Shown here in pieces: positions 13,326 through 43,425 of a stretch of 64,000 bases of DNA. Where the stretch lies: positions 1 through 64,000 of the forward strand of contig NZ_VUYS01000001.1 in the NCBI RefSeq assembly GCF_008389435.1. Reading direction: 5' to 3'. The first letter of the stretch is position 1; each line of letters starts with the position of its first letter. The stretch comes from Candidatus Nitrosocosmicus agrestis. Lineage in GTDB: Archaea; Thermoproteota; Nitrososphaeria; Nitrososphaerales; Nitrososphaeraceae. Below the pieces are notes generated by a model that did not search any database, was not told the origin of the DNA, and was given only the letters and a program-made list of their open reading frames with translations. The translations under genes and the position numbers were made by a program.

Positions 13326-13386
13326 AACCTTACTGGCGCCACTAAAAGATATGAAGAACTGAAACCATAAAGAAGAGAGAATTCAG

Positions 13387-21099: not shown

Positions 21100-21252
21100 A
21101 TACACAAACATTTAGCATTGTTAATATAAAATGAAATTTTGGGTGATCCATTTTGATTAATATTGGATCGATTTTTAAAAACAGAGTAAAGTCATAATTT
21201 AGGGTATAATTTGTTCCAAGTCAGTAAGAATGAAAAATATTTGGCATATCTA

Positions 21253-24964: not shown

Positions 24965-25128
24965 TGAAAATTAAGTTCTCATTAGTAGGGTTCTATAACA
25001 TGTTCATCACAATGAATTCTTTGACATGATTTATTATATTTGTGCTCAATTTCTATGGATTTGGTATATTACCTAGTAACAGTCTGGGCGCGTGGGGATT
25101 AAGTTCCTTGTGGTAGTAGGGTTCTAAT
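24965..25128 (+). repeat. Dispersed repeat, long form, best consensus copy
   Basis: The left part has AAATTAAGTTCTCATTAGTA, GGGTTCTATAACATG, GAATTCTTTGACATGATTTA, TTTGTGCTCAATTTC. The core is CCTAGTAACAGTCTGGGCGC, GTGGGGATTAAGTTCCTTGT, GGTAGTAGGGTTCTAAT. AAGTTC-C/T-C...TAGTAGGGTTCTA recurs at both ends. Confidence 0.92.
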
Positions 25129-25314
25129 ACATTGATGCTATCTCTCTAGACATCAGAAAGCGGTGACCCAGTTGACATCAATTCAATATCATATCTTTAT
25201 ATGCATTGGCTCAAATAACAGAACGATAGTACAAAAGCAGTGAAATGAAACTTAGGATTTAATCCGACTCAAGCATTATGAAAAGTTAAATAATGATTTT
25301 GAATTGGAAACATC

Positions 25315-26079
25315 ATGGAAAAATCAGTAATAATTGTATTGTTTTTTGTACTTTTGATAGCAATATTACCCACTAACGCCTCGTTTGCATCTAAAGGAAA
25401 TGAGAGTCTTGTAAATCAAGATATGGCTAGTGCGGATTCTAATATTTCTAGTTTAGCATACGGTTCAAATTCAAGCCCATTCAATATTTCCTATGCTGAC
25501 TGGACTGAAAAGTGGTGGCAATGGACGTATTCCATCCCTTGGAACAATAACCCATCATATGATGATACTGGAGAGCATTGTGATGAAAATCAACATGGTC
25601 CTGTATGGTTTTTGACTCTAGCATATGAGCATCCAGTTGAACGCACTTGTAACATACCTCAAAATACTGCGCTGTTAATTACAACATTAAATTCCGAATG
25701 TTCTTTTGCAGAGTTTAAGGAACTGAAAACTGAAGAAGAACTAAGAGAGTGTGCCAAAAATATGCAGGATTTTGTTACTGGAGCAAAAGCTTCCCTAAAT
25801 AATATCACTATACCCAATATTGATGAGTATCGCATTCAAACAGATTTATTTAACTTCACATTGCCTCAAGATAACATATTGAATTTAACTGCTCAAACAA
25901 CACAAGCTGTAGCGGATGGAAATTGGCTTTTTCTAAAGCCACTGCCTCCAGGTAAGTACGAGTTGAAGGTAAAAGGAGAAATAGATCCTAAAACATCTTC
26001 AAATGAAACAGGTGGTAATGAATACAATGGGCCAATTGGTTGGAATCAAACTACTACATATAACTTAGTGGTAAATTAA
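25315..26079 (+). CDS. Secreted protein of unknown function, aromatic-rich
   Basis: 254 residues. Signal peptide: MEKSVIIVLFFVLLIAILPT, cleaved near ASFAS. The N-terminal domain has SYADWTEKWWQWTYSIPWNN and GEHCDENQHGPVWFLTLAYE with a RTCNIPQNTALLI strand, and four cysteines that could form two disulfides (GEHCDE, RTCNIP, SECSFA, RECAKN). The C-terminal part (LFLKPLPPGKYELKVKGEID) looks like a beta-sandwich. The WxxKWWQW start is one I associate with conserved thaumarchaeal secreted proteins; role unknown. Confidence 0.82.
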   Translation: MEKSVIIVLFFVLLIAILPTNASFASKGNESLVNQDMASADSNISSLAYGSNSSPFNISYADWTEKWWQWTYSIPWNNNPSYDDTGEHCDENQHGPVWFLTLAYEHPVERTCNIPQNTALLITTLNSECSFAEFKELKTEEELRECAKNMQDFVTGAKASLNNITIPNIDEYRIQTDLFNFTLPQDNILNLTAQTTQAVADGNWLFLKPLPPGKYELKVKGEIDPKTSSNETGGNEYNGPIGWNQTTTYNLVVN

Positions 26080-26164
26080 CAGATTTCTATTTTAAGTTAA
26101 CCTTGATCCTACATTATGTATGTTCTCTTAACATTGATGCAATGATAATTTTGGATATCCGATA

Positions 26165-26220
26165 ATCGTAACAATCCTCATCCGAAGGGATAAAGGTCTG
26201 GGTCGTAGTAGAGTTCGAAT
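26165..26220 (+). repeat. Dispersed repeat, degenerate copy
   Basis: AATCGTAACAATCCTCATCC, GAAGGGATAAAGGTCTGGGT, CGTAGTAGAGTTCGAAT. Head TAACAATC, AAGGGATAAAGGTC and GTAGTAGAGTTCGAA tail are recognisable. Confidence 0.6.
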
Positions 26221-26450
26221 GTAAAGGATTTGACGTAATTGAAATTAAGTCCAGTTCATAACATTCTTAGAACATATTTCATTCCCCGCGATATTCACAT
26301 GGATATTAATTAACGATAAGATTTATTGAAATCAAATATAACCAATAATATCAAAGATTTACACATCGCTAGCATAGAAGAAAGAAAGATATCTAGCACC
26401 CAAAGTATTAGTATTGTGAAAAAGACCTGGCTAGATATGCAATTTTAGTA

Positions 26451-26996
26451 TTGGACATGTTAAATGACTTTATTAAAGGTAGTTTAAAATGTGAAAGGGC
26501 ATTAGAGATTATTCCAAATATTCGCACTTTGTTAGGTATAGCCAGGAATAATCAAATTCCTATTTTTTATTGTGTAGATGAACACCTTCCGACTGATAGC
26601 TATGAATTAGATCTATGGGGACCTCATGCAATGAAAGGTACAGTCGGACAACAAATTATTGATGAACTGAAACCACAAAAGTATGACACGGTTATTACAA
26701 AAAGAACGTATAGCGCATTTGACAGAACTACTCTGGATAAATCTTTGGTTAGAGTATATGATGGGAAAGGTGTTGACACGATAATAATTACTGGGGTGCA
26801 TACACACATTTGCGCAAAACATACATCATATGACGCTTTTACAAGGGGGTTGAAAATAATTATAGCAGAGGATGGGACGCAAGCATTTTCAGCAGAGGAT
26901 CATGTATCAGGTCTTGAATACATCAGAAAAATTTATGGTGCGGATATAAAGACGATAGACAGGATTATCGAACTTCTCGTTTCTAATAAACAATAA
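26451..26996 (+). CDS. Isochorismatase/nicotinamidase-family cysteine hydrolase, N-terminus disturbed
   Basis: 181 residues from TTG at 26451. Catalytic features of the family: LDMLNDFIKG with the Asp; KRTYSAFDRTTLD with the Lys; and DTIIITGVHTHICAKHTSYD with the cis-peptide and nucleophile Cys. The frame is open six or more codons further upstream (RYAILV before LDML), as in normal family members, but meets a stop before any ATG or GTG. A GTG at 26416 followed by five A residues would be in frame (VKKDLARYAILV) if one A were added. So the start is either the internal TTG or a homopolymer indel. Convergent with the SDR gene. Confidence 0.88.
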   Translation: MDMLNDFIKGSLKCERALEIIPNIRTLLGIARNNQIPIFYCVDEHLPTDSYELDLWGPHAMKGTVGQQIIDELKPQKYDTVITKRTYSAFDRTTLDKSLVRVYDGKGVDTIIITGVHTHICAKHTSYDAFTRGLKIIIAEDGTQAFSAEDHVSGLEYIRKIYGADIKTIDRIIELLVSNKQ

Positions 26997-27161
26997 CCAA
27001 ATCCGTATTACGAGAGAAGACGAATACAAGTTCCTTATATGGATAAGGACTTAATCATTAAAATTTCAGCTAACTATGTTAAGTGCCAATTTAAAAGATG
27101 CCTCGATATTAGAAGTTATAAAAAGTATTTAATTTATTATTATAACTAATAGAGCTCTCAT

Positions 27162-28082
27162 CTATTTTAACAAATCACATTTTAACAAAGCATGAAATTC
27201 AGTATCAGTTAATTCTTTCTTAAGCTTCGAGTATTTTTTTGAATCGTTTCCAACTGTTATTCTAAAGATAGGATTAGAAGTGTTTGATTCATCAGATACC
27301 ATATTGATACTATTGATTATTTCGTTTGCAACAACTCTGGGGTGAGGAGCTTTACTCATTGCATTGAAGTAAAATGTCAAGAATCTTTGTATGGTGTCAT
27401 TATAGAAAGATAATGAAGTTTCCTTGCTATCCTCATCAAACTGGTTAATCTGACTCCCTTTTTTATCCACTCCATATTTATTTGAAGGCAGAACTAAATC
27501 TTGTACAAATTCGGTATTTATTACCCCGGGTTCAATTAATATCATTTTGATTCCAAAAGGTTCTAACTCGTAAGATAATGCTTCACTCATTCCCTCTACT
27601 GCAAATTTTGTAGACGAATAAACAGATTGAGAAGGTATTCCCGCCAATCCCGACATAGAACTAACATTAATTATTATTCCACCTCTTTGTTGCCTCATGG
27701 TCGGAAGAACATTTTGAATCACTCTCATGACACCAAAAACATTGGTCTCAAATTGCTTTTTAATGTCATCCATTGTAAAGTCTTCCATTGCTCCAAACAA
27801 ACCATAGCCTGCGTTATTAACTAGGACATCAATTTGACCATATTCATTGACTATTTTCTGAATCGCAGTGATAACTGAATTATCATTGTCCACATCCATT
27901 TCAAATACTTTTATTTGAAGGTTTTCTTCTCGAGTGATATTTTCCATTTCAACCGACTTTTTCAAATCTCTCATGGTTGCACAAGTTAGAAAACCATTTC
28001 TAGCAAGTGCCAAAGATGTTTCAAGGCCGATACCTGTTGAGCTTCCCGTCACTACGGCTACTTTTTTATGATCGCTAGACAT
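27162..28082 (-). CDS. Short-chain dehydrogenase/reductase (classical SDR)
   Basis: About 306 residues from the ATG at 28082 (MSSDHKKVAVVTG; four extra residues are possible from 28094). NAD(P)-binding GSSTGIGLETS, NNAGYG, NVSSMSGLAG with the catalytic Ser, and YSSTKFAVEG with the Tyr/Lys pair. LEPFGIKMILIEPGVINTEF follows the active site. The C-terminal extension after the core is longer than minimal SDRs and typical of the 'oxidoreductase, RDH-like' group. Basic residues after the first strand suggest NADP use; substrate unknown. Convergent with the isochorismatase-like gene. Confidence 0.92.
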   Translation of the reverse strand: MSSDHKKVAVVTGSSTGIGLETSLALARNGFLTCATMRDLKKSVEMENITREENLQIKVFEMDVDNDNSVITAIQKIVNEYGQIDVLVNNAGYGLFGAMEDFTMDDIKKQFETNVFGVMRVIQNVLPTMRQQRGGIIINVSSMSGLAGIPSQSVYSSTKFAVEGMSEALSYELEPFGIKMILIEPGVINTEFVQDLVLPSNKYGVDKKGSQINQFDEDSKETSLSFYNDTIQRFLTFYFNAMSKAPHPRVVANEIINSINMVSDESNTSNPIFRITVGNDSKKYSKLKKELTDTEFHALLKCDLLK

Positions 28083-28164
28083 AACATAGAACATGGGATG
28101 GAACAGGACTAAAAATTGTTCTATTATCTGTGTAGAGTAAAGTAATTTATTTAAACATCACAAC

Positions 28165-28340
28165 ACTATTAAGTTCTCGTTATGCCATAGAATCAAAAAT
28201 AAATTAGTGGGGTTCTACAACATCCAATTGCATTACGAATTCGTGATTAGGTTATGCAAATTAGTGCTTAATATCGAGTAATTTGGTATGATCATTTAGT
28301 TTGGGCGCGTGGGGATGCGATTCAAGATTGAATAGAATCC
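28165..28340 (+). repeat. Dispersed repeat, long form with type 2 tail
   Basis: The left part has ACTATTAAGTTCTCGTTATG, then TTAGTGGGGTTCTACAACAT and TTAGTGCTTAATATCGAGTA. The core is ATCATTTAGTTTGGGCGCGT, GGGGATGCGATTCAAGATTG, AATAGAATC. It combines the type 1 motif at its left end with a type 2 tail at its right end. Confidence 0.88.
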
Positions 28341-28513
28341 CAGTATCAAATTAGATATAACAACTAATTTATTAATTCATACTTACAGCTTTGTATAAAT
28401 TAGAAGAAAAGGTTTGAATCAAGCATATTTTGAAATCATAGAAAGGTTTGAAGAATAATCTTCTAAAAAGGGCATTAGAAAAATCTGATGAGTATAGAAA
28501 AAGAGAAAATTAG

Positions 28514-30541
28514 TTAATCTTCGGTATTCTCTTCACCATTTGATTCGTCGTTACTGCCGCCATCATCTTCACCATTTGATTCTTCAGAGTCAGATCCTTC
28601 ATCATTATTGTCGTTAGAGTCATCATTTTCATTTTCATTGTTTGGATTTTCTTCGCTGGTGGAACTTTGATCCTCATTTTCACTTGTGGTGTCGCTACTT
28701 TCTTCCTCTAGTGGTGGATCTGTCCAGTCATCTATATCGTCATTGTCTCCACTGCTACTTGTACAAGTGTGATCATGACTTGCTTGTTCTGCAGTGCATG
28801 GATTACTGTCGTCATTGTTATTTTCATTGTCGTTACTTTCATCATTATTTGTTCGATCATCACCTCTTTGGTCGGTTTCACAGCCTATGCCATCGTTATC
28901 TCCATCAAGGTTATTGGGGTCATTACTTCCAACCGCAATATTTGTCTCCCCGATGTCACTGCAGTTTAGATCGTTGGCTCGCGTATCATTATTGTTGTCA
29001 TTATTATTAGTTTCACAGCCTATGCCATCGTTATCTCCATCAAGGTTATTGGGGTCATTACTTCCAACCGCAATATTTGTCTCCCCGATGTCACTGCAGT
29101 TTAGATCGTTGGCTCGCGTATCATTATTGTTGTCATTATTATTAGTTTCACAGCCTATGCCATCGTTATCTCTATCAAAGCCGTTTGGATCATTATTTCC
29201 AACCGTCATATTAGATTCTTGGATATCGGTACAGTCTAAGTCACCACCGTTATTGTTTAGATCTTCAGCTTCACAGCCTATGCCATCGTTATCTCCATCA
29301 AAGCCGTTTGGATCATTATTTCCTACAAAGAAGTTTCTTTCATCAATGTCCTCACAGTCTAAGTCACCACCGTTATTGTTTAGATCTTCAGCTTCACAGC
29401 CTATGCCATCGTTATCTCCATCAAAGCCGTTTGGATCATTATTTCCTACAAAGAAGTTTCTTTCATCAATGTCCTCACAGTCTAAGTCACCACCGTTATT
29501 GTTTAGATCTTCAGCTTCACAGCCTATGCCATCGTTATCTCCATCAAAGCCGTTTGGATCATTATTTCCTACAAAGAAGTTTCTTTCATCAATGTCCTCA
29601 CAGTCTAAGTCACCACCACCGCTACCGTCATTACTTGATCCAGAGTTATTATTGTCATTATCATTATCATTAGATCCTTGATTATTATTTATCAAAGGAA
29701 GTGGAGCAGATAATCCACCAGTAATAAATTGTTCAGTTGTAGTTCCACCTCCATTGTTAAATGTAAACTTTGGATTAAAGGGAGGACTCATAGAACTCTG
29801 TACTGAGTCTATATTAATTGAATAGAAAGCAGCTTGAGATTTTGTTTTATTATCAATTATAGTAATATCAAATGGCGCCATTTGATTGTTAGGAAGATTA
29901 GCTACATTCAGTCCAAAGCTTTGAGTTCCAACTATCCCCAAACTAGAATTATCATAATATGTTGTAGCCAGATTCAAAAGCTGTTCTGGAAATTGTCCTT
30001 TGTTTATTATGTTACCTACTATATGAGGATTGCCAACATTATCTACAAATGAGTTACTGCCGTTTAAAACCAAGGTAGATGGTTTTTCAGAAGTAGCAGA
30101 TTGAGATGTAGTTGAGAACTCCATAAAGTTAAATTTTCCTAATATCAGTTGCGGGTTTTGTATCACTATATCAAAAGGAGATAATTCGCCTGACCTTAAA
30201 GTTCCAATTGAAGAGAAGGCAGTAAAATTGCCAACAACACTATCATCACTACTGTTTGTATCATACAGAATAGCTGTTACTGTAATATTGTTTTGAGGCT
30301 GAATCGAGGTATTATTTACTTCACCTATGATATGAAAATTGCCAAGGTCATCGGTATAAGTTGAGGTACTTATAAGCTTGATTATAGTGTTATTATTACC
30401 AGAAAGTTGAGCTTGGACAGAAGGTATAGTCAAAGAGTCAACTTCCAGATTAGTAAAAGTAGACAAAGACATTGGAGGCAGAGACATCATCAAAATTACA
30501 ATGATTGAAAATAATTGTGTCACTTTAGAAGCTGTACGCAA
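28514..30541 (-). CDS. Secreted protein with FxLYD-like domains and six Excalibur calcium-binding repeats
   Basis: 675 residues. Signal peptide ~1-45. Two FxLYD-like domains: ~60-135 (TDDLGNFHIIGEVNNTSIQP) and ~160-245 (VDNVGNPHIVGNIINKGQFP). Six Excalibur-type units occupy ~310-556, each with a DLDC/DLNC start and D-x-D-N-D-G-I-G-C-E loop. The first three are 41-residue near-identical copies (123-base DNA repeat), the fourth is a variant, and the last two form a second near-identical pair. The C-terminal ~115 residues are an acidic Asp/Glu/Asn/Ser tail. Excalibur loops bind calcium in other secreted proteins, so a Ca-dependent surface role is likely. Confidence 0.88.
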   Translation of the reverse strand: MRTASKVTQLFSIIVILMMSLPPMSLSTFTNLEVDSLTIPSVQAQLSGNNNTIIKLISTSTYTDDLGNFHIIGEVNNTSIQPQNNITVTAILYDTNSSDDSVVGNFTAFSSIGTLRSGELSPFDIVIQNPQLILGKFNFMEFSTTSQSATSEKPSTLVLNGSNSFVDNVGNPHIVGNIINKGQFPEQLLNLATTYYDNSSLGIVGTQSFGLNVANLPNNQMAPFDITIIDNKTKSQAAFYSINIDSVQSSMSPPFNPKFTFNNGGGTTTEQFITGGLSAPLPLINNNQGSNDNDNDNNNSGSSNDGSGGGDLDCEDIDERNFFVGNNDPNGFDGDNDGIGCEAEDLNNNGGDLDCEDIDERNFFVGNNDPNGFDGDNDGIGCEAEDLNNNGGDLDCEDIDERNFFVGNNDPNGFDGDNDGIGCEAEDLNNNGGDLDCTDIQESNMTVGNNDPNGFDRDNDGIGCETNNNDNNNDTRANDLNCSDIGETNIAVGSNDPNNLDGDNDGIGCETNNNDNNNDTRANDLNCSDIGETNIAVGSNDPNNLDGDNDGIGCETDQRGDDRTNNDESNDNENNNDDSNPCTAEQASHDHTCTSSSGDNDDIDDWTDPPLEEESSDTTSENEDQSSTSEENPNNENENDDSNDNNDEGSDSEESNGEDDGGSNDESNGEENTED
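28890..29620. repeat. Internal tandem DNA repeats of the Excalibur gene
   Basis: Three 123-base units (about 29250-29620) are almost identical, for example CACAGCCTATGCCATCGTTA followed by TCTCCATCAAAGCCGTTTGG. A second pair of near-identical units of about 138 bases lies at about 28880-29150. Recent expansion within the coding frame; the copy number is likely variable. Confidence 0.85.
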
Positions 30542-33966: not shown

Positions 33967-34011
33967 CCCTATGGATATTGAAATTAAACTTTCCCAGTAA
34001 TGTTATTTAAT

Positions 34012-34065
34012 ACAGTAACACTAAGTTTGGGCGCGTGGGGATACGATTCAAGGTTGAACAGTACC
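34012..34065 (+). repeat. Dispersed repeat, last good copy (type 2 tail)
   Basis: ACAGTAACACTAAGTTTGGG, CGCGTGGGGATACGATTCAA, GGTTGAACAGTACC. Matches the complement of the tRNA-Lys 3' end at 42184-42201 in 16 of 18 bases (GGGCGCGTGGGGATACGA versus GGGCCCGTGGGGATTCGA). Confidence 0.88.
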
Positions 34066-34192
34066 TATCATCGAATCAATACTTATATTGAGATTATTTA
34101 GTCTCCTTGAAAGAGTAAATGTCTCAAAACTTGAAACATACGAATATAAATAATAATTACATATTGGAATCTGGGTGTAAATACCCATTTAC

Positions 34193-34269
34193 TATCCTCA
34201 GGTAGTTAAGTTAGGCATAACACCCCCCTTGCAAAGGGGAAGACGAGGGTTCAAATCCCTCCCTGATAT
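34193..34269 (+). tRNA. Degenerate tRNA-like gene, Ala anticodon TGC
   Basis: D-arm GTTA/TAAC with a GG-containing loop, anticodon loop CTTGCAA (TGC), T-arm GAGGG-TTCAAAT-CCCTC, acceptor 3' strand CCTGATA. The 5' acceptor strand reads TATCCTCAGG, which pairs perfectly only if three bases (CCT or CTC) are looped out; one anticodon-stem pair (31-39) is also C-A, and the G3-U70 identity pair of tRNA-Ala is absent. Probably a pseudo-tRNA, perhaps damaged by integration. Functional status unknown. Confidence 0.5.
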
Positions 34270-34514
34270 AACAAGTTAAAATATTTTATTCTCTGATGAA
34301 CACAAGTATTTTGGTTGCTATACCAAGTTCTATGACCAGATTTAGTTCAATTTTTTATTCTCGATTTGTTTTGGACTAATTTACATCCATGATGCAAGTA
34401 TATAGAATTAGAGTCAAATATGGCAGAATTCCACAATGAACTATAAGCCTCTTGTAGATGGGGAGTTAGACTGATTTTTAGATAGGTTGGATAAATTATC
34501 TCATTACTAGTTGC

Positions 34515-34550
34515 ACACATGGGATACAATTCGATCTTAATTCAAAAGGT
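34515..34550 (+). repeat. Dispersed repeat, degenerate tail-only copy
   Basis: ACACATGGGATACAATTCGA, TCTTAATTC resembles the 13632 tail-only copy (GCATGGGATACAATTCAAAATTG). Confidence 0.45.
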
Positions 34551-34580
34551 TAAATATACGAAACATGATGAATTAATGAA

Positions 34581-35345
34581 TTGTCTTCTAAAGACTCCTC
34601 AATATCATTTAAAATAGATAAACCATCACTTTCTGATTTTGTATTGAAGACAAGTCATTCTCCCGTTTTTCCAATTTTTCATTTAAGAATAGTACCAGTC
34701 GAAGAAGCAGGCGATTCTGAGTTAGAATTAAAAGTCAATAAGAAGATTTTTAATTTACTTAAAGATCTTTTTTTTATTGACAAATTCACACTTTATTTAC
34801 CATTAAATGAAGGCTCCCTTGGGATATGGCAACCGGATATGGCAATTGGATTAGAAATTCTTACTAGATTAGGAATATTAAGGAACATCAATGAATGGAT
34901 AAGCGACTCTCGAATTGCTCTGGTGAATATATTAGACAATCAAAAAGTAGAATCTAAATTAAGTAATGATACTGCATTTAAGAACTCTGAAGAAATTTTG
35001 AATGCTATGAGTATATTACCAGACATATCGTCAAATAAGTTACTATCAATAGTTGTAAAAGACGTTATATCTGCAAAACATCTCGATCCTCAAACAATAA
35101 TTTATAGGTTGGCTATGGCTATATATCATACAAGGAATGCGACAGGTGAATCAATCTCAAAAATGATTGACAACCCTCTGGATTTGTATCTTAGACTATT
35201 AGAAAGTGATTACTATACAAAGAATTCTGAACCGTTTAAACAAATTGATAAACTTCCAGTCGATCTTAGGGGATTAGTCACGAAGGTAATAGCAGTATTT
35301 GCAATAGCCGCGTATTTCTATCATAAGGAAATCAGGGAATTGTAA
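34581..35345 (+). CDS. Unknown protein, first gene of a compact three-gene set
   Basis: 254 residues, TTG start. Soluble, mostly helical: NKKIFNLLKDLFFIDKFTLY, EGSLGIWQPDMAIGLEILTR, LSIVVKDVISAKHLDPQTII, IDKLPVDLRGLVTKVIAVFA. The final hydrophobic stretch (AVFAIAAYFYHKEIREL) could be a helix packing against a partner or a weak membrane anchor. Stop and start overlap by one base with the next gene, so translation is coupled. No family recognised. Confidence 0.75.
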   Translation: MSSKDSSISFKIDKPSLSDFVLKTSHSPVFPIFHLRIVPVEEAGDSELELKVNKKIFNLLKDLFFIDKFTLYLPLNEGSLGIWQPDMAIGLEILTRLGILRNINEWISDSRIALVNILDNQKVESKLSNDTAFKNSEEILNAMSILPDISSNKLLSIVVKDVISAKHLDPQTIIYRLAMAIYHTRNATGESISKMIDNPLDLYLRLLESDYYTKNSEPFKQIDKLPVDLRGLVTKVIAVFAIAAYFYHKEIREL

Positions 35346-35968
35346 TGGATGCACGAAATACTGATAACGATCAATTCATGAACGTATGGCGTTCAAAGCA
35401 TTATGTTGGAACCAACTCAGGTATGATAACAACCACTTCAAATTATAATAATATGGAAAATTCACAAAATAGTAAGAGGGAGTTCATAGCGTTCTCAACT
35501 AACAATACTCAAGTACCAAATTCAATAGGTATTTCTACTACGCAAGAGTGGAGAATTGTTCCTTCTTTGATGGGATTAACAGAGGCTGTTTTTATGCTCA
35601 ATGATATTGCACAAGCACAGTACAGAGAGTTGCACAGCATTCGAGGACTATTAGAATCATTATTGCAAAAAGACAAGGATAATTTAAGCAACAATTCTAA
35701 TGTTCTAGAGGAAATCGAGTCCAAAATTATTGAACTGTTTAAACAAATTGATTGTCTACAAAGTGTACTAGTCGAAAATAGGGATGGCCTATTATTAACT
35801 ACGTTTTTACATACAGATGAAGATCGAGTAAGAATTTCTGATAAGATTATCGATAAATTAATTGAATTGGAGGACAATTTTCCAAATATTAATTTTGAAC
35901 CAAGTATATTGCATGTAAATGATAAGTCATTCGATAAATTTTCGGGAAAAAGAATAACTTTCCGGTGA
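35345..35968 (+). CDS. Unknown coiled protein, second gene of the three-gene set
   Basis: 207 residues. The first ~75 residues are polar and low complexity (Asn/Ser/Thr). Then a helical hairpin: SLMGLTEAVFMLNDIAQAQY, RELHSIRGLLESLLQKDKDN, VLEEIESKIIELFKQIDCLQ. The C-terminal part (SVLVENRDGLLLTTFLHTDE, RVRISDKIIDKLIELEDNFP) has the strand-helix feel of a small sensing domain. Its first codon overlaps the stop of 34581 and its end overlaps the next start by four bases (GTGA). Likely bridging subunit; no family recognised. Confidence 0.72.
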   Translation: MDARNTDNDQFMNVWRSKHYVGTNSGMITTTSNYNNMENSQNSKREFIAFSTNNTQVPNSIGISTTQEWRIVPSLMGLTEAVFMLNDIAQAQYRELHSIRGLLESLLQKDKDNLSNNSNVLEEIESKIIELFKQIDCLQSVLVENRDGLLLTTFLHTDEDRVRISDKIIDKLIELEDNFPNINFEPSILHVNDKSFDKFSGKRITFR

Positions 35969-36336
35969 AAGCATTAATGTCAAGTAGTTGGCATATTAAG
36001 AAAAGTAATCATAATATCGACGCTTGTAACTACATGAATGTTAAAACCCCTCAATATATGGATTGGGAAGTGGTAAGTATTTTTTATTCGTCATTACATT
36101 TGATTAATGCATATTTTGAGAAATTTAATCCTCCTGTCCCATCTAAACATAATTTTCGAAACGAACGCGTAAGAAGAGATCCCAATTTAACAAAAATTAG
36201 AGCACCATATCTAAGTTTGTACACTGTATCTAGATCCGTTAGATATGATAGAGACGTCAGTAATGACAGCGAGGTAAAGGCCGCTATGAGAGATTACAAT
36301 TTAATAAAAAATCATCTCAAGAATTACGGCATTTAG
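35965..36336 (+). CDS. HEPN-like small protein, third gene of the three-gene set
   Basis: 123 residues, GTG start. The helix DWEVVSIFYSSLHLINAYFE, the following KHNFRNERVRRD, and a helix with YLSLYTVSRSVRYDRDV fit the helical architecture of HEPN domains, many of which are RNases or nucleotide-binding partners in toxin-antitoxin and defence systems. A clear catalytic R-x4-6-H is not present in the usual position, so the activity is uncertain. Overlaps the preceding gene by four bases; convergent with 36376. Confidence 0.6.
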   Translation: MKALMSSSWHIKKSNHNIDACNYMNVKTPQYMDWEVVSIFYSSLHLINAYFEKFNPPVPSKHNFRNERVRRDPNLTKIRAPYLSLYTVSRSVRYDRDVSNDSEVKAAMRDYNLIKNHLKNYGI

Positions 36337-36375
36337 GTTTTTGAAGAATATTTATCTGCTAATTTTAGACTAATT

Positions 36376-36909
36376 TCAACTCTTCATTATGGATTCAATT
36401 AGTTCTTCTCCTAATTCCTTTTTATAATCTTCAATTTCCAAAATTTGTATGCTATCGATAAATTCTTTGACAACTTGTTCATCCTCTATTCTTCCATTTT
36501 CTTTGCAATAGGGACAATCTGGAACACATTGGTGCCCGGTACAGTATTTCGCATTTGCTCTATCTCCCGAATAATCTAGTTTCTCCATTTCTATGTAAGA
36601 TGGATGGAAATAGTACATTTCTTTCCTTTGTCTATATCGTTCTTCTGGAGTATAGTTATTCAAACAATGTGATAAATGATATTCAAATTCTTCAGAGGTA
36701 TATTCTTGTCCATCAAGATTACCTAAAGTTGGATTTCCTCCTTGTCTTGTATATTTCTCCATTCTAATCGCATGGTATAATCCAAACCTTTGCGTCTTTT
36801 CATTTTCATCTTTGTTTAAATTATTATCTTCAATCTCGTTAGCCTTTTCTTCTACTTTCTTAATTTTCTTGGATAGATCATCAAGCGTTTTCTTTTTAAT
36901 TATTCTCAA
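36376..36909 (-). CDS. Unknown protein with a Cys/His cluster, coupled to an HTH gene
   Basis: 177 residues. A charged coiled-coil N-terminus (KKTLDDLSKKIKKVEEKANE), then an aromatic/acidic middle (EFEYHLSHCLNNYTPEERYR) and a compact metal-binding-like cluster near residues 122-135 (CTGHQCVPDCPYC), followed by an acidic end. Four cysteines and a histidine could bind one zinc. Overlaps the HTH gene by 14 bases and is on the same strand, so the two are co-expressed. Element-type gene; no family recognised. Confidence 0.72.
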   Translation of the reverse strand: MRIIKKKTLDDLSKKIKKVEEKANEIEDNNLNKDENEKTQRFGLYHAIRMEKYTRQGGNPTLGNLDGQEYTSEEFEYHLSHCLNNYTPEERYRQRKEMYYFHPSYIEMEKLDYSGDRANAKYCTGHQCVPDCPYCKENGRIEDEQVVKEFIDSIQILEIEDYKKELGEELIESIMKS

Positions 36910-37321
36910 CCCTCTCTAACCTTTCCTCTAGTTCCTTTAGATAGATAAGCGAAGGTCCCTCCGCTATGAGTTTAAACAAAGACTCATTACATTCTTTCGC
37001 CAATTTCAGAGCATTTAACTTGTTCATCCATGTTACCTCATTATCAGCATCTTTGTTGTTGTAAATATTCCAGCATTCATTCAATACTGTTTTTATACCC
37101 TCAATGGATGTTTGATACATAAATGGTAAACTTTCCTTGACCATGGAATTTAGATTGTTACTTGATTCTCTAGACAGATATTGTATATCTCTGCTGATAG
37201 TGGCAGGGTCTACTCCTAATTCAGTTGCAATCTGATATCCTTTAAGCCCTTTTGTTAGTAATACAAGTACTCTTTCCCTTCTGTATGATATTGTTTTATT
37301 ATACGAACATGAAAGAGTCAT
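36896..37321 (-). CDS. Helix-turn-helix protein, terminase-small-subunit or regulator type
   Basis: 141 residues. The N-terminal HTH is clear: RRERVLVLLTKGLKGYQIAT, ELGVDPATISRDIQYLSRES, the pattern of sigma-70 region 4 / insertion-element HTH domains. The rest is helical with NEVTWMNKLNALKLAKECNE and ends in a coiled coil (LKELEERLERVENN). Phage terminase small subunits and plasmid regulators both look like this. Start at 37321. Transcribed with 36376. Confidence 0.8.
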   Translation of the reverse strand: MTLSCSYNKTISYRRERVLVLLTKGLKGYQIATELGVDPATISRDIQYLSRESSNNLNSMVKESLPFMYQTSIEGIKTVLNECWNIYNNKDADNEVTWMNKLNALKLAKECNESLFKLIAEGPSLIYLKELEERLERVENN

Positions 37322-37421
37322 TTTAATTGCGGATATTGCATATATCTAATCTCAAAATAATAAAGATATTGCATGGAAATAATAATCATTAGCATAGATG
37401 GCAATTAAGAAGTTATAAAAG

Positions 37422-39344
37422 TCAAGCCTCAAAATCTTTTCCATCTACTTTTTTGTGAAGATCAGATAACTGAATATGACGAACTATTTCCTCCCGATGG
37501 ATATTCTTAATATTAGGATGCTCTACACAAAAAAAGAACGGTTTCTTATAAGGTATTTCATAGTCATCTGCTGCTTGACCTTGACTAGTCTCTGAATTTT
37601 CTTTTCTTTTATGACTATTAAGGTAGATAAGGTAATGAGATTCTCGCTCTTTTTCAGAATTATGTAATGCTGATTTTAACACTTTTAACGGTTCTAACAC
37701 TTTATCAGAGTCCTCATTGGTTTTTTTATCAAAATTATTAGGTATAGAATTAGTATTTTCTAGATTACTTTGTTTGCTCTCTTTGAGATTTAAGGATATC
37801 TGATCCATTTTCGTTCTCTGGTTTTTTGTCTGTATGTCGCTCTTGCTCTCTATATGTTTCCAAAAAGTGTTAATTGTGTTAATTGTGTTAGTTTTGGACT
37901 TGTTCAATATTTCTATCTGTTTTATGGGTAAATAGTTGTCCTCAAGTCTTTTTAATCCTATGTTATCAAATGCCAAGATCCTATGTTTTCCGTCGTGTTC
38001 TCTTTTAGCCCCAAACTTGTCCTCGCATATTCTTGAAATCAATGTTTTAGACACAGTACCAAATTCATTTGTTTGATAACTATGAGGCTTTGAAGGGATG
38101 GCATTCCCTGGAAGGGTACATACAATTTCCCATATGTCTTCGTTTGTGAGCCTGTATCCATTATTTTCTTTAGCCAAATCCTTCACAATTGAATAGATAA
38201 AAGAATCAAGCGAGTTTAATTTTCTATTTCTTTTATCTGCTATGAACTTGGATAATGAATCGAGAATATCTTTTAGTACATTAGTATCTTGAAATAACCT
38301 TATCAGAGGCTTGCAGAGTTGTTTTTCTCTATTCTTAATGGAGAGATTTAGATCAGGAATAGGTTCATCATAATGCATTACCCTGAAAATAAGTAATAGT
38401 TTTCTTAAATCCTCTAGTTCTCTTATTAATTTCTTGTATTTTTTATCTCCCGCATCGTTCACAACTTCAAGGATATCGAATAGAGGGTTTCCTGCCGTGC
38501 ACTGAATTGGAAAAATCCTTTCAACGAAACCCTTCGCTTTATAAAATCCTGGTTGTCTTTCAGAAGTGTATGCTTTAAAACTGTAGGTGTTAAACCTTTT
38601 TTGAGGCTTTGATTTATTAACTCCGCTAGCCGAAGAATCATACATCCTGGTGACTTTTGATCCTCTTGTATATCCTGATTTGTAAATTTTCATTTTTTCT
38701 GGTTGTTCTTCTATGTCATCGATTTCATCTTCAAGAATTATGCCTTGCCCTTCCTCTTCTTGACCTAAGAAATTATAGATGTTAGCCGGACTGATGTTTA
38801 CATCTTTGAGTGGCCTATATGCTAATTGCTCCAGTACTGATAGCGCGTTACTTTTACCAGTATTGTTATCACCTACAAAGAAAAGATAGTGTGTCATCCC
38901 CAATTTATCTTGAAAATAAGTGAAAATTGTATCAGCAGCACAGAGGTCTAGCGTCTTTTTGTCAGTATCAAAATATTTTTTCCAGATATTCTTTGTTTTC
39001 ACAAATAATGAGTCCAGAGTTTCTTTTGATGCTCTTTTGATATAGAAGTTTATTTCATCGATGGAAGAAAAACTATAGTCTTTGCTAAGATATTCAGTCT
39101 TATCTGGAGGTAAGATTAACTGTCTATCTAAATCAATATTGTCTCTCAGAATGGCTTTACCATTACTTATTTGTAAGAACAATGGTAGATTTCCACCGAT
39201 CAAAATGGATTCCGCAAGAGAAATATCCTTGCTGTACTTATAAAAGATGAACTTTCTTTTGCCGACAGATTGATCTTCAGTATTATTATCTGCTTCTTTG
39301 TTCTGGGAACTATTAGTTGGTTTACGAGACAATTTGAACATCAC
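37422..39344 (-). CDS. P-loop ATPase, replication/primase-helicase-like, of an integrated element
   Basis: 640 residues. Walker A FVGDNNTGKSNALSVLEQLA near residue 180, Walker B GIILEDEIDDIEE near 220, an arginine-rich sensor region ERQPGFYKAKGFVERIFPIQ near 280, then a helical domain and a C-terminal wHTH-like stretch (SLDSFIYSIVKDLAKENNGY, RLTNEDIWEIVCTLPGNAIP). This layout matches superfamily 3-like or DUF3987/primase-helicase ATPases of plasmids and viruses that load at replication origins. The last 150 residues are polar and weakly structured. It is the main candidate for the replication protein of the element. Confidence 0.8.
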   Translation of the reverse strand: MMFKLSRKPTNSSQNKEADNNTEDQSVGKRKFIFYKYSKDISLAESILIGGNLPLFLQISNGKAILRDNIDLDRQLILPPDKTEYLSKDYSFSSIDEINFYIKRASKETLDSLFVKTKNIWKKYFDTDKKTLDLCAADTIFTYFQDKLGMTHYLFFVGDNNTGKSNALSVLEQLAYRPLKDVNISPANIYNFLGQEEEGQGIILEDEIDDIEEQPEKMKIYKSGYTRGSKVTRMYDSSASGVNKSKPQKRFNTYSFKAYTSERQPGFYKAKGFVERIFPIQCTAGNPLFDILEVVNDAGDKKYKKLIRELEDLRKLLLIFRVMHYDEPIPDLNLSIKNREKQLCKPLIRLFQDTNVLKDILDSLSKFIADKRNRKLNSLDSFIYSIVKDLAKENNGYRLTNEDIWEIVCTLPGNAIPSKPHSYQTNEFGTVSKTLISRICEDKFGAKREHDGKHRILAFDNIGLKRLEDNYLPIKQIEILNKSKTNTINTINTFWKHIESKSDIQTKNQRTKMDQISLNLKESKQSNLENTNSIPNNFDKKTNEDSDKVLEPLKVLKSALHNSEKERESHYLIYLNSHKRKENSETSQGQAADDYEIPYKKPFFFCVEHPNIKNIHREEIVRHIQLSDLHKKVDGKDFEA

Positions 39345-39430
39345 GAACTAAATTGAAAATGTGAAAAGAAATGATATGTTAGAGAAACAATTCTCCCAAT
39401 ATTGGATCTTTAATCATAATGTGTGTCAAC

Positions 39431-39721
39431 TTACTGCTTTACTTTAATAGTGTATTCTAACAAGTCAATCTTGTATTCTTCAGCAATTATTTTCTTGAGG
39501 ATGGTTTGCTGTTCATCTTCGGAAAACCGGCCTAGAATACTTACGATTGATTGGCCACTTTCAGAATTTCCTACATGTATTGTAATAATAGATAATCCTC
39601 TGTCAATCTGGTCCGTTATGCAATTTAAAGTTCTTTTTTTAGTCCAGATATAACGAGTTGAATCGTCAATTACGTTGACTAGCAGATTCTTCAGTCGTTG
39701 AATATCGCTATTTTTCATCAT
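39431..39721 (-). CDS. Small unknown protein of the element
   Basis: 96 residues, soluble. KNSDIQRLKNLLVNVIDDST then strands TLNCITDQIDRGLSIITIHV, GQSIVSILGRFSEDEQQTIL and a final LLEYTIKVKQ. Acidic, alternating helix and strand. No family recognised. The gene lies 19 bases downstream of the AbrB-like gene on the same strand, so the two are co-transcribed; the P-loop ATPase gene follows on the same strand after an 86-base gap. Confidence 0.65.
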   Translation of the reverse strand: MMKNSDIQRLKNLLVNVIDDSTRYIWTKKRTLNCITDQIDRGLSIITIHVGNSESGQSIVSILGRFSEDEQQTILKKIIAEEYKIDLLEYTIKVKQ

Positions 39722-39739
39722 TTTTCTACACCTCTATTT

Positions 39740-39937
39740 TTATGCTTTTTCTACGATAATCTTGTTCTCTTGCTGATAGACTTTGACAAAATCACCTTTT
39801 CCAATACCCAGGTTGATTGCGAACAATTTTGGTAGTACAAATGAAAAAGAATGCTCACCTACCAGACCTTGGATTTTGCGATATTCTGTCTTGTTTTCGA
39901 TTGGTTCGTTATTTTCTGAAATTTCCATATTTTCCAT
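39740..39937 (-). CDS. AbrB/MazE-like swapped-hairpin DNA-binding protein
   Basis: 65 residues from the ATG at 39937, chosen because the longer frame to 40030 adds a Cys/Trp/Ile-rich leader that lies opposite the divergent gene. YRKIQGLVGEHSFSFVLPKL, AINLGIGKGDFVKVYQQENK, IIVEKA has the beta-alpha-beta pattern with IGKGDFVKV typical of SpoVT/AbrB domains. It is divergent from a wHTH regulator across a palindrome, so a regulatory or antitoxin role is likely. Confidence 0.78.
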   Translation of the reverse strand: MENMEISENNEPIENKTEYRKIQGLVGEHSFSFVLPKLFAINLGIGKGDFVKVYQQENKIIVEKA

Positions 39938-39958
39938 TGAATAAAGGATATATATATT

Positions 39959-39977
39959 ATGCCATATTTTGTGGCAT
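39959..39977. promoter_or_regulatory. Palindromic operator between the AbrB-like and wHTH genes
   Basis: ATGCCA-TATTTTG-TGGCAT is an inverted repeat; another ATGCCACA half-site lies at 39988. A TATATATATT stretch (39948-39958) just left could be the TATA box of the plus-strand gene. A dimeric regulator bound here would control both genes. Confidence 0.65.
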
Positions 39978-40859
39978 ATGATTGAAGATGCCACAAAAGG
40001 CGGGAAAGATCTAATCCAACTAAAAAACAAAAGGCTAATGAATGAAATTATTAAAGCAGTGATGAAGAATGGAAAAATCGGGTTATCTCAGAAAGAATTA
40101 TCGGAAATGGTTAACATGAATAGAGAAACCTTAAGAAGATATATGAATACTCTAATGAATCATGGCTTAATAAAGAGATATAGTGAGAAGGGGAAATACT
40201 ATATTAATCCCCTCTACCTCGGAAGGTCATATATTGGTGGAATAGCGTTCAGTTCACATTTCTTAAATGAGATACTGGGAGAGGACAATATTGCTCCCAA
40301 ATTCAAAAGAAGAATGATTTCAACTGACTACTACTCAAATGATCTAAAAGAAAACAATACCTTTGGAATAATGTTTGACGGTACAGAAGAGAACATATCA
40401 AAAAAAGTCTTGGATAATATTTTTAAAGATGAGGTTAATAAACTTCAAAAATCTATATTTGAATTTGCTAATCAAATTGGTGCATATCATATTTTTGTGT
40501 ACTTAGTAACACTGGAGAAATACCACGTTGACAAAAACATTTCAGAGAAACTAACCCCAGAGGACATAGAATGGCTCCAGAATGCGTTATCGTCGTTTAT
40601 TATCGACTCGTATTATAAATTTCGAGACAAGGTATCAAATTATGAATTAAACGAGGATCAAAAAAATAAGATTAGTCAATATATCAAGGACAATAAATTA
40701 CAAACTACTAAATTGGAAAAGATAATTCATGCCGAGATGTCCTTGGCTTCACTATATCCTATAATATACACAATTCTCCAACAATTTGACATTAAAATAC
40801 AAGATGACAACATGATCATGAAAAACGATCTAATTGACTACGCAGGAAAAATTGAATGA
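39978..40859 (+). CDS. Winged-helix transcriptional regulator with large C-terminal domain
   Basis: 293 residues from the ATG at 39978 (an in-frame TTG at 39969 lies inside the operator). The wHTH is clear at residues ~14-68: LMNEIIKAVMKNGKIGLSQK, ELSEMVNMNRETLRRYMNTL, MNHGLIKRYSEKGKYYINP. The ~220-residue remainder (FGIMFDGTEENISKKVLDNI, FANQIGAYHIFVYLVTLEKY) is helical and unassigned; it may sense a ligand. No Shine-Dalgarno: probably leaderless. The start lies directly on the palindrome, consistent with autoregulation. Confidence 0.82.
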   Translation: MIEDATKGGKDLIQLKNKRLMNEIIKAVMKNGKIGLSQKELSEMVNMNRETLRRYMNTLMNHGLIKRYSEKGKYYINPLYLGRSYIGGIAFSSHFLNEILGEDNIAPKFKRRMISTDYYSNDLKENNTFGIMFDGTEENISKKVLDNIFKDEVNKLQKSIFEFANQIGAYHIFVYLVTLEKYHVDKNISEKLTPEDIEWLQNALSSFIIDSYYKFRDKVSNYELNEDQKNKISQYIKDNKLQTTKLEKIIHAEMSLASLYPIIYTILQQFDIKIQDDNMIMKNDLIDYAGKIE

Positions 40860-40865
40860 AAATAA

Positions 40866-42125
40866 CTATGGTTTCTCCTCTATTCTTTGTATTCTGTCCA
40901 ATACTATTCTGAGTTGATCTGAAAGTAAAGATATCGCTTCATTGTTCATTTGATCTTGCTCCTTTAGCAATTTGATTTCGTTTTCCTTTTCTTGTAATTT
41001 TCCATTTATGATGTAATTACTATTTTGATTTACAACTTCAAGATCCTGTAGTTTCTTAGTTAATTGGCGACTGTCAGAGTAAAACGTAAGAACATCTGTC
41101 GCCTTCAAATAATCCTTTAAGACATCTTTTTCCAAGGGTTTGTAATAACTCTTCGATATCCCTAAATCATGTCCAAGCAAGATTTCAACGTTTGCTGGTT
41201 TCATAAAAGGTTCACAATTGGTTTTGAAATATTTCCTAAAACCGTGTAAGGCCTTGAATTCATGACGCTTGTCACCTCTTTCTAGTACCGGTCTGACATT
41301 CTGTTGAAATAATCCCTTGCAGACTAGGCTCTTTATTCCACTGCTCTTTAGTTTTATGGGATTTTGTGCCAATCCTGTTTTCGATCCATATCTCATATTT
41401 GTTGTCTTCCAAAGGTTTCGCATCAACCAACTTTCTCCAGTTATCTTTTCGCCATATGATTCTCTATATGTCATCCAATCCTTCAATGATTGATAGGCTT
41501 CTACGGTAATGAAAGAATAGTATTGCTCATTTTCACCTGGATATACAATGATCTTTGCAGCAATCACTTCAGAATTTTTTTCTTCATCCATAATTGGAAT
41601 AACGTGTTTCCATCTAAGATAATCCCATGCACCTAACCTTATCCCAGATGATACCATTGTCAATACGATTGGCTTAATTCTTCTATCAGGATATTCCAAT
41701 AACTTTTTTATTTCATCTTTAGTAGGCACTCTATCTTCTGAAGCATGTCTTCCCTTTGGAATACCCCTAGTTACTAATCGCCAGTTAATGACAATGTCAT
41801 TCATATCACAAAACAATTTTATTGGTTTATAATAGTTAGGAATGGTTGATTGAGATATTTCTCCTCTTTTGGCCCGCTCATTTTGGAAGATGAAATAGTT
41901 TAACAAAGCATTTTGAAAAGTCTTTGGGTCTTGATTTATGAATTCATAGAACTGATTAGCCTTTTCTTCGATAGTTGATCCTTGCAGTTTCAAATAATCA
42001 AGAAAAACCTCCATTCGTTTTGGATACTGTCTTTTTGTTTCTGGGGCCTTTAGTGCATAAATAAACCTAAAATATGGAGAATCCATCATGATTGGTCCAT
42101 TAGTGGTATGCTCAAATGATTGCAA
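40866..42125 (-). CDS. Tyrosine recombinase / archaeal integrase
   Basis: 419 residues. The N-terminal SAM-like DNA-binding domain comes first (YALKAPETKRQYPKRMEVFL). The catalytic domain follows: SSGIRLGAWDYLRWKHV (first Arg), EFKALHGFRKYFKTNCEPF (H-x-x-R), EILLGHDLGISKSYYKPLE (His and the nucleophile Tyr), with a coiled-coil tail (LQEKENEIKLLKEQDQ). It begins 58 bases from the 3' end of tRNA-Lys and points away from it, as in elements that integrate in tRNA genes. The gene is intact, so it is of the type that is not split on integration. Confidence 0.93.
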   Translation of the reverse strand: MQSFEHTTNGPIMMDSPYFRFIYALKAPETKRQYPKRMEVFLDYLKLQGSTIEEKANQFYEFINQDPKTFQNALLNYFIFQNERAKRGEISQSTIPNYYKPIKLFCDMNDIVINWRLVTRGIPKGRHASEDRVPTKDEIKKLLEYPDRRIKPIVLTMVSSGIRLGAWDYLRWKHVIPIMDEEKNSEVIAAKIIVYPGENEQYYSFITVEAYQSLKDWMTYRESYGEKITGESWLMRNLWKTTNMRYGSKTGLAQNPIKLKSSGIKSLVCKGLFQQNVRPVLERGDKRHEFKALHGFRKYFKTNCEPFMKPANVEILLGHDLGISKSYYKPLEKDVLKDYLKATDVLTFYSDSRQLTKKLQDLEVVNQNSNYIINGKLQEKENEIKLLKEQDQMNNEAISLLSDQLRIVLDRIQRIEEKP

Positions 42126-42182
42126 ATCTTGTCCCTAACGATATCCATCACTTCGGGCCTAAAAAAGGATTCAGTTATGAAG

Positions 42183-42273
42183 CGGGCCCGTGGGGATTCG
42201 AACCCCAGACAGCCGGATTTCTTTCTTTTTTAAGTTAAAAGTCCGGTACTCTACCTGGCTGAGCTACGGGCCC
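42183..42273 (-). tRNA. trnK: tRNA-Lys (TTT) with a 17-base intron
   Basis: Acceptor GGGCCCG/CGGGCCC, D-arm GCTC-AGCCAGGTA-GAGT, anticodon stem CCGGA/TCCGG with loop CTTTTAA, T-arm TGGGG-TTCGAAT-CCCCA, discriminator G at 42183. An intron of 17 bases (ACTTAAAAAAGAAAGAA) sits after position 37, the canonical archaeal site. Its 3' end faces the integrase and is the probable attachment site. Confidence 0.95.
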
Positions 42274-42532: not shown

Positions 42533-42805
42533 ATGAGTAGTATAACAAAAACCCACAAAGTTGGACTATTTGCAATGTTCATTGCAGCAGCCCTCATAGG
42601 TTCAGTAGTAGCTTTTGATAACATGGCATATGCAGGTGGAAGTCACCACAAAAAATCAAACGATGCAGAACAAGAAATTGAACAAGGACAAGCAAGCGAA
42701 CAATCTGGACAATGTGTCACCGGTACAGTATCACTCATAAACTGTAACAATGTAGGGTTATTCTTCCAAGATAACGACGGTAACATCGCCGCAGGACAAC
42801 AATAA
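42533..42805 (+). CDS. Small secreted Gln-rich protein, curlin-like unit (copy 3)
   Basis: 90 residues. Signal peptide MSSITKTHKVGLFAMFIAAA with cleavage near MAYAGG. The single mature unit reads AEQEIEQGQASEQSGQCVTG, then SLINCNNVGLFFQDNDGNIA, AGQQ. The paired cysteines, CNN and G-N-I-A-A-G-Q-Q match the first unit of 3981-4415 and 20248-20856. A tandem copy follows at 43153. Short single-unit members of a repeat family may act as nucleators or caps of a fibre; this is inference. Confidence 0.82.
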   Translation: MSSITKTHKVGLFAMFIAAALIGSVVAFDNMAYAGGSHHKKSNDAEQEIEQGQASEQSGQCVTGTVSLINCNNVGLFFQDNDGNIAAGQQ

Positions 42806-42832
42806 ATCTTTTTTTTCTTTTTTGATTTTAGA
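42806..42832 (+). terminator. T-rich archaeal-type terminator
   Basis: ATCTTTTTTTTCTTTTTTGA directly after the stop; the same sequence follows the tandem copy at 43426. Confidence 0.7.
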
Positions 42833-43095
42833 ATTTAAACAAATTATACCTAATCATCTATTTTCTACTTTAAAGTCATTATATGAGTACAACTTCCTTC
42901 ACTCATAATCATAAAAAACAATAAATCCAATAATTAATAATTCAATTAATATAAACAGGCATAACTACAAAAGTATTTTTTAAAGTAACAAACATCGTTA
43001 TAATAAGATAACAGGTAATGCCAAGAACAAAAAGCATTTTGACCAAATTCAATTTTACTAAAAAAATAATAGAAAACTATTTCAAATAAATAAAG

Positions 43096-43152
43096 CAGTA
43101 ACGAGTATCCAAACTATGATATAATTAATTTCAATTATACAATTCAATTACA
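43096..43152 (+). promoter_or_regulatory. Duplicated promoter of the tandem small secreted genes (second copy)
   Basis: Identical to 42476-42532, offset by exactly 620 bases. Confidence 0.6.
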
Positions 43153-43425
43153 ATGAGTAGTATAACAAAAACCCACAAAGTTGGACTATTTGCAATGTTC
43201 ATTGCAGCAGCCCTCATAGGTTCAGTAGTAGCTTTTGATAACATGGCATATGCAGGTGGAAGTCACCACAAAAAATCAAACGATGCAGAACAAGAAATTG
43301 AACAAGGACAAGCAAATGAGCAGAATGCACAATGTGTATCTGGCGACTTCACAATTGCTGGATGTAACAACTTAGGTTTATTGTTCCAATTCCAAGACGG
43401 TAACATCGCCGCAGGACAACAATAA
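43153..43425 (+). CDS. Small secreted Gln-rich protein, curlin-like unit (copy 4)
   Basis: 90 residues, tandem paralog of 42533. Upstream 57 bases and codons 1-54 are identical at DNA level. Then about 80 bases differ heavily (roughly 30-35 substitutions, mostly changing residues: NEQNAQCVSGDFTIAGCNNL here versus SEQSGQCVTGTVSLINCNNV), and the last codons plus terminator are again identical. The cysteines and CNN are kept. Same predicted secreted location and possible fibre role as the neighbour. Confidence 0.82.
   Translation: MSSITKTHKVGLFAMFIAAALIGSVVAFDNMAYAGGSHHKKSNDAEQEIEQGQANEQNAQCVSGDFTIAGCNNLGLLFQFQDGNIAAGQQ

Follow-up and report, generated by a model that had tools for sequence, protein, structure and literature searches.

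What are the short repeats that stand beside a tRNA-Lys gene and an integrase gene in Candidatus Nitrosocosmicus agrestis? The window analysed here (the whole stretch of 64,000 nucleotides) lies on contig C24 of this source genome, designated G000; further G-numbers denote the genomes of relatives. An earlier note on this DNA had observed that a repeat near 34 kb matches the 3' end of tRNA-Lys, and had offered two origins for the repeats: attachment sites on which the integrase encoded at 40866 or a relative could act, or tRNA-derived sequences resembling short interspersed elements (SINE). We found that the single pair of sites described there belongs to a genus-wide array. As judged from sequence, the repeats are likely to be attachment sites of a site-specific recombination system anchored at tRNA-Lys(UUU), on its 3' end from T-arm to acceptor, and the ammonia-oxidising archaea of the genus Nitrosocosmicus seem to possess their own integron-like means of storing and swapping genes.

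Results

The repeats resemble tRNA-Lys(UUU) specifically

An intact, intron-bearing tRNA-Lys(UUU) gene lies at c42182-42273; on the plus strand its 3' end appears, as the reverse complement, in the form GGGCCCGTGGGGATTCGA (42184-42201). The repeat reads GGGCGCGTGGGGATACGA, which reproduces the 16 of 18 identical positions reported in the earlier note; the matching stretch begins at 34029, one base further on than the 34028 given there. The copies called type 1 in that note, said to match the first 15 positions with one change, are indeed identical at 14 of 15.

We scored 35 tRNAs, recovered with a covariance search and ARAGORN, against a profile built on 99 array sites, all from other genomes. 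tRNA-Lys(UUU) reached 25.4 bits; the runner-up had 12.7, and among 42,000 background positions the highest score was 12.6. A profile from the G000 sites alone gave 22.3 bits for tRNA-Lys(UUU), 13.2 for the next tRNA and 7.3 for the best background position. The T-arms of all tRNAs share some likeness, and tRNA-Lys(UUU) scores well clear of the rest. The earlier note had called for the repeat copies to be compared with tRNA 3' ends and had allowed that a wider consensus might resemble no tRNA; tRNA-Lys(UUU) came far ahead in this ranking, and the profile from other genomes still recognised it. The T-stem variant GTGGGGA is common to the repeats and to the tRNA-Lys of the genus, while tRNA-Lys of six related genera has GTCGGGA. 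Together, the profile scores and this genus-type variant indicate that the resemblance to tRNA-Lys(UUU) is specific. The best-matching tRNA is also the one that adjoins the array in four genomes (G000, G004, G006 and G013). The resemblance is real and not due to chance; taken alone, it would not say whether the repeat descends from the tRNA end or the reverse.

The repeats form co-oriented arrays beside tRNA-Lys

In G000, repeats cluster at C24:5-34 kb (in the window), C11:39-80 kb and C40:5-25 kb, the copies within each segment pointing the same way, and scattered degenerate copies occur on contigs C14 and C28. A model of the repeat based on sequence alone had matches in each of the 15 genomes of the genus (3-73 apiece); in 26 genomes of other genera, from the family and order, there were at most two matches in any, mostly weak. 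The main array of the three complete genomes comprises 22-53 sites each (score at least 15) and lies at 1122-1175 kb in G004, 531-638 kb in G006 (reverse strand) and 189-324 kb in G013, where tRNA-Lys occupies c1175527-1175618, 514164-514255 and c339073-339165, respectively. In all three, as in the window, the array flanks tRNA-Lys on its 3' side, with sites oriented like the tRNA 3' end. Because the four genomes are related, we count this as a single shared array location rather than four independent ones. Across six array segments, 150 of 150 sites (score at least 15) were co-oriented. In G004 (rho -0.47, p=0.015) and in G013 (rho -0.37, p=0.003), sites are less well preserved the further they lie from tRNA-Lys.

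Sites also occur away from tRNA-Lys. G006 has a second, small co-oriented cluster at C1:190-210 kb, and G013 has isolated sites at C1:656576 and 1830990, the former of which resembles a duplicated stretch because its arms (i.e., the sequences flanking its core) are those of 220896.

The arms of the sites define a core-to-core unit

Each site consists of a left arm, a 14-bp core TGGGCGCGTGGGGA and a right arm. Left arms fall into classes A (TTAGTAACAGTC), B (AGTATCATTTAGTT) and C (CAGAACATTTAGTT), plus an integrase (Int) arm; right arms fall into R1 (TTAAGTTCCTGGTGGTAGTAGGGTTCTAATACA) and R2 (TACGGTTCAAGGTTGAATAGAATC), with R3 and R4 rarer. Written as left arm/right arm, the array sites of the window upstream of the integrase-bearing element are:

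5362-5419, + strand: degenerate site with a B-like left arm (profile match 25 bits)
6586-6653, + strand: site B/R1
8650-8717, + strand: site B/R1
10351-10409, + strand: site A/R2
11746-11811, + strand: site B/R1, whose right side recurs at C40:21515 after a different left cassette
13287-13328, + strand: degenerate, R2-like site (profile match 13 bits)
14188-14255, + strand: site B/R2
15317-15374, + strand: site with unassigned left arm and R1
16994-17051, + strand: degenerate site with A and an unassigned right arm (profile match 21 bits)
19307-19362, + strand: site A/R1 with a degenerate core (profile match 18 bits)
21042-21103, + strand: site A/R1
25070-25132, + strand: site A/R1
28288-28349, + strand: site B/R2

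Arms flanking one core combine randomly (R1/R2 versus A/BC: odds ratio (OR) 1.6, p=0.3). The right arm of one core is tied to the left arm of the next (counts 28, 22, 4 and 57; OR 18, p=8e-9). This association is lost (not significant) at core distances of two and three, and it persists when one interval per homology cluster is used (p=1e-4). Among intervals shorter than 2 kb, R2 ended in A in 0 of 30. The base immediately left of the core tracks the left arm (p=3e-13) and the base immediately right tracks the right arm (p=5e-4); the core columns track neither. Random pairing across cores together with linkage across intervals thus identifies the core-to-core interval, with matched ends, as the mobile unit. 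There are two classes of unit, class I (R1...A) and class II (R2...B/C), and neighbouring units are joined within the core.

The arms also contain motifs, among them AGGGTTCTA and TAGAACCC. Of 143 sites, 49 carry AGGGTTCTA at a distance of 19 bp to the right of the core, and the inverse of this motif lies ~21 bp left of the core in 6 of 10 tRNA-Lys-side arms (up to three mismatches allowed). Such mirror-image motifs at similar distances are as expected if one recombinase family binds the arms on both sides of the core.

Cassettes are shared and reshuffled between genomes

Homologous segments were taken from alignments, either inside one genome or between two, with a minimum length of 200 bp. 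In 80 cases a segment end lay no more than 20 bp from a core; 13.9 were expected, and 200 shifted controls gave 33 at most. This alignment-end test was used in place of a strict test for full-length core-to-core pairs, which yields only two since it requires the sites on both flanks to be detected at each of the two locations. Homologous intervals elsewhere were found for 91 of 151 intervals, with only three conserved adjacent pairs. A three-gene 3.2-kb unit is common to C11:50422-53651 and C40:18264-21515 (88%), where its neighbours differ, and C40:21515 combines the left cassette of C11:50422 with the right sequence of C24:11763. The window contains:

25084-28301, unstranded: three-gene cassette (254, 181 and 310 amino acids (aa)), equivalent to G006:202875-206130, which has other neighbours (87.7% over at least 75% of both)

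The median site spacing is 2.0 kb, and units are mostly 0.6-4 kb. Most intervals carry 1-3 genes (at least 100 aa) on both strands (115 with the direction of the sites, 168 against), and an integrase is normally absent. Cargo in the window includes a RibD_C-type reductase, a luciferase-like monooxygenase, PNPOx, an alpha/beta hydrolase, an MFS transporter, a CHRD protein, a GH5 cellulase, an isochorismatase and a short-chain dehydrogenase.

A tyrosine recombinase family probably connects tRNA-Lys with array sites

The right-hand part of the locus comprises the following features, including the proposed left (attL) and right (attR) attachment sites:

34010-34074, + strand: array site B/R2 with core at 34028-34041, proposed attL; ends as in the G009 array element
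34028-42182, unstranded: integrase-bearing element from attL to tRNA-Lys, read from open reading frames and arm comparison
40866-42125, - strand: tyrosine recombinase (integrase) of 419 aa, from PHROG match, catalytic residues and fold
42154-42182, + strand: integrase-side arm GGGCCTAAAAAAGGATTCAGTTATGAAGC, limits approximate; adjoins tRNA-Lys in G004 and R1 in G009
42183-42196, + strand: core in tRNA-Lys CGGGCCCGTGGGGA, proposed attR, from arm junctions and profile
42182-42273, - strand: tRNA-Lys(UUU) with intron, array anchor

The product of 40866-42125 matches a PHROG integrase with E=5e-4, and its relatives do so down to 2e-17. Its conserved residues are R163, H294-x-x-R297, H319 and Y327/328, to which a catalytic role is assigned by analogy, and its predicted fold resembles XerA, Cre and lambda Int. 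The window integrase was not recognised by Pfam, and phmmer against PDB gave nothing useful. We regard the assignment of this predicted protein as a tyrosine recombinase as settled by PHROGs and fold comparison. One close relative comes from 'Candidatus Nitrosocosmicus sp.', and others are encoded at G006:514303 and G013:323964; relatives in viral contigs are only 23-24% identical. A core match in a viral contig (L169) was rejected as a lone chance match within a phage-like contig, without arms.

The 29-base integrase-side arm precedes the core at tRNA-Lys in both G000 and G004. In G009, an identical arm (Int ~74% identical) is joined to an array R1 half-site (GCGGGCCCGTGGGGATTAAGTTCCTTGCGGTAATAGGGTTCTAATACA), a similar Int arm is joined to an R3 half-site in G003, and a related arm is joined to another tRNA in G007. 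Since the Int arm meets tRNA-Lys here and array half-sites in two relatives, one integrase family apparently uses both. These junctions lend support to the first of the two origins offered earlier, i.e., that the repeats derive from attachment sites on which the 40866 integrase or a relative acts. Int relatives adjoin tRNA-Lys in G006 and in two other genera, and they are found beside other tRNAs at G000:C41:22844-24150 (Ala-GGC), G000:C18:166692-168104 (a doubtful tRNA) and G007:C54:1735-3120, which points to tRNA 3' ends as the general target of the family.

The stretch 34028-42182 is best read as an element with a putative attL (34028), int, and a putative attR in tRNA-Lys (42183). Its ends (R2...Int arm) match those of an element inside the G009 array, the left end of which is 118381 or 122862. 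Its far end carries an imperfect direct repeat of the tRNA 3' end (34029-34046, 16/18), and its tyrosine recombinase gene adjoins the tRNA, as in tRNA-targeting integrative elements. We found no clean empty site in relatives: the Int arm has other partners in G009 and G003, and tRNA-Lys of G009 holds another element. The integrase encoded at that tRNA (G009:C6:25591-26994) differs from the one in the window; it is a PHROG integrase of 467 aa, and a primase-like gene stands next to it. On G009 C6, where tRNA-Lys is at 27 kb, the genes at 2 and 16 kb are related to G013 genes at 18 and 73 kb, and in G013 the array lies between these flank-gene relatives and tRNA-Lys at 339 kb. From this match G009 may be near an empty site, with the reservation that the flank genes are not single-copy everywhere.

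In G004, only the first part of int is left at tRNA-Lys (C1:1174581-1175527; 76% over 66 aa), beside a small cassette; this fragment is the remains of an element like that of the window. Int fragments are also present inside the G013 array. Just within the proposed left end of the window element, a tRNA-Cys(GCA)-like gene lies at 34196-34269 (+ strand). It may be element-borne and degenerate because its outer acceptor pairs are mismatched (CCTCAGG versus CCTGATA); there is a further tRNA-Cys call at G000:C9:66284.

Discussion

From sequence comparison, the unit can be shown to run from core to core with linked ends that join randomly across cores, and cassettes to be shared and reshuffled between genomes; the same holds for the uniform orientation, the place beside tRNA-Lys, and the occurrence of one Int arm next to either tRNA-Lys or an array half-site. 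We propose that the units are integrase-less core-to-core cassettes plus a few larger integrase-bearing elements (e.g., 34028-42182), and that a resident element would supply the integrase. This enzyme would recombine the core of a circular cassette or element with a chromosomal core (the tRNA-Lys 3' end or an array site). Core asymmetry would set the orientation, and integration would be one-directional. With each event, the incoming unit's left arm would become joined to its neighbour's right arm (or to the tRNA), giving an array oriented like the tRNA 3' end, and integrase-less units would be carried along in trans. The steps that follow core-core recombination are visible as genome products; our inferences concern the enzyme, the circle and the growth direction. 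Tyrosine recombinases of the 40866 family would be the enzymes, acting in trans on integrase-less cassettes, with the R2 and B/C arms tied to no enzyme. The intermediate would be circular, with predicted joints A-core-R1 and B/C-core-R2, and growth would take place chiefly at the tRNA-proximal end.

Some observations do not sit well with this proposal. Only two of the four arrays show a significant age gradient, the exceptions being G006 and the window segment. The pairing of arm classes is loose, given the many R1...B intervals (18), some of which are probably double units hiding an undetected site. G009 is without repeats within 27 kb of tRNA-Lys (the tRNA is on C6, the array on C9), and no Int relative was found in G008. 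Finally, the crossover point in the core was sought via shared variants, and the hints conflict (the G009 Int/R1 junction versus C40:21515).

Could the intervals instead be decayed remnants of complete int-bearing elements that accreted in tandem at tRNA-Lys, with no mobile integrase-less cassette? Int-bearing elements do sit at tRNA-Lys (in G000, G006 and other genera) and within the G009 array, the truncated int of G004 and the fragments in the G013 array would be natural traces of them, and arrays from a re-used single site are known for tyrosine-recombinase elements (PMC6563490). However, the intervals are short (median 2 kb), and the same integrase-less units run core to core, both ends matched, in differing contexts and genomes (C11/C40; window/G006), whereas independently decaying remnants should neither keep both ends nor move on. 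We therefore consider accretion conceivable but unlikely. Shuffling of units by host homologous recombination between repeats, which would then have another role (e.g., as regulatory sites or a dispersed element), is improbable. It would suit ~60-bp repeats in tens of copies and some near-identical duplications within arrays, yet the arm families have only the 14-bp core in common and linkage breaks exactly there. A stretch of 14 bp is too short for efficient homologous recombination. Such recombination would also leave the tRNA-Lys location and the Int-arm hybrids unexplained, and the sites never turn although genes lie on both strands.

The likeness to the tRNA-Lys 3' end is what speaks for dispersed repeats of tRNA-derived SINE-like type, or of the type of miniature inverted-repeat transposable elements. 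Only ~15-18 nt are common to repeat and tRNA 3' end, however, and Rfam found two tRNAs alone and no RNA family at the repeats. The repeats are clustered and uniformly oriented, with discrete exchangeable arms, and the cassette ends at the core and the linkage test, which contradicts such an origin, show core-to-core cassettes. The SINE-like option of the earlier note thus loses its footing, and we judge it extremely unlikely. An oriented cassette array beside an anchor site could also belong to a true integron whose IntI and attC sites went undetected, and the sites do share one orientation (150/150). The cassettes, in contrast, mostly carry 1-3 genes rather than one, and these face both ways (115 versus 168). 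None of five integrases of the 40866 family reached any NCBIfam cut-off, the best and only related model being archaeal XerA, with scores far below its threshold. Four sites tested for attC-like folding, on both strands, formed no single-strand hairpin better than shuffled sequence (z-scores -0.26 to 0.96). It is thus extremely unlikely that this is an undetected integron: the system works like one but is not a member.

Integrons are the textbook gene-cassette system. Like the system described here, integrons (IntI, attI and attC) comprise a one-directional array of small cassettes between recombination sites, with a primary site at one end and reshuffling between genomes. They differ in that the system here is anchored at a tRNA gene, with a core like the tRNA-Lys 3' end and matched arms at the two ends of each cassette, attC-like folding is absent, genes run in both directions, and the integrase is not integron-type. 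Archaeal integrons described to date, reported in archaeal metagenome-assembled genomes, are built from IntI and attC like those of bacteria (PMC9668308). Tandem accretion of tRNA-integrated elements (archaeal proviruses, integrative and conjugative elements, and cryptic integrated elements; PMC6563490) likewise involves a tyrosine recombinase, a tRNA T-arm/3' end target and same-direction tandem attachment sites. Here, in contrast, there are tens of short integrase-less units, whose ends are of two classes and whose partners change freely. In the Xer-dependent pdif modules of Acinetobacter plasmids, gene modules lie between short tyrosine-recombinase sites and the recombinase acts in trans; pdif sites resemble dif and alternate in orientation. 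The sites described here are all co-oriented, chromosomal and tRNA-Lys-like.

We put at about even the chance that this is an independent archaeal counterpart of the integron, i.e., a tRNA-Lys platform with double-stranded sites resembling the tRNA 3' end, at which integrase-less cassettes are captured and reshuffled through the tRNA-targeting integrases that resident elements supply, genus-wide and undetected in neighbours. If so, it would be a separate solution to gene-cassette storage, built on tRNA-targeting integrases, and would account in part for the accessory genes that Nitrosocosmicus carries and for its plasticity. A further suggestion is that a cassette system could arise through repeated use of one tRNA attachment site. 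Nitrosocosmicus goes unmentioned in a survey of integrated elements of thaumarchaea, which places integrons among the classes undetected in archaea (PMC6563490). A 2026 paper on skin Nitrosocosmicus describes integrase-flanked genomic islands, and its main text mentions no cassettes, integrons or tRNA (PMC13245735). We found no earlier description of the system in the literature searched, a search that left subscription papers and preprints outside.

Other features of the window

A large protein with repeated Excalibur calcium-binding motifs is encoded at 28514-30541 (- strand), where the DNA carries 123- and 135-bp repeats. Outside the cassette array, 51-bp tandem repeats with nearly identical copies lie at 53500-53958. 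Just outside tRNA-Lys, 42533-43425 (+ strand) encodes two near-identical 90-aa secreted-type proteins in tandem, and small genes with a conserved start (MNKTNIHNK...), like this pair, recur within the array.

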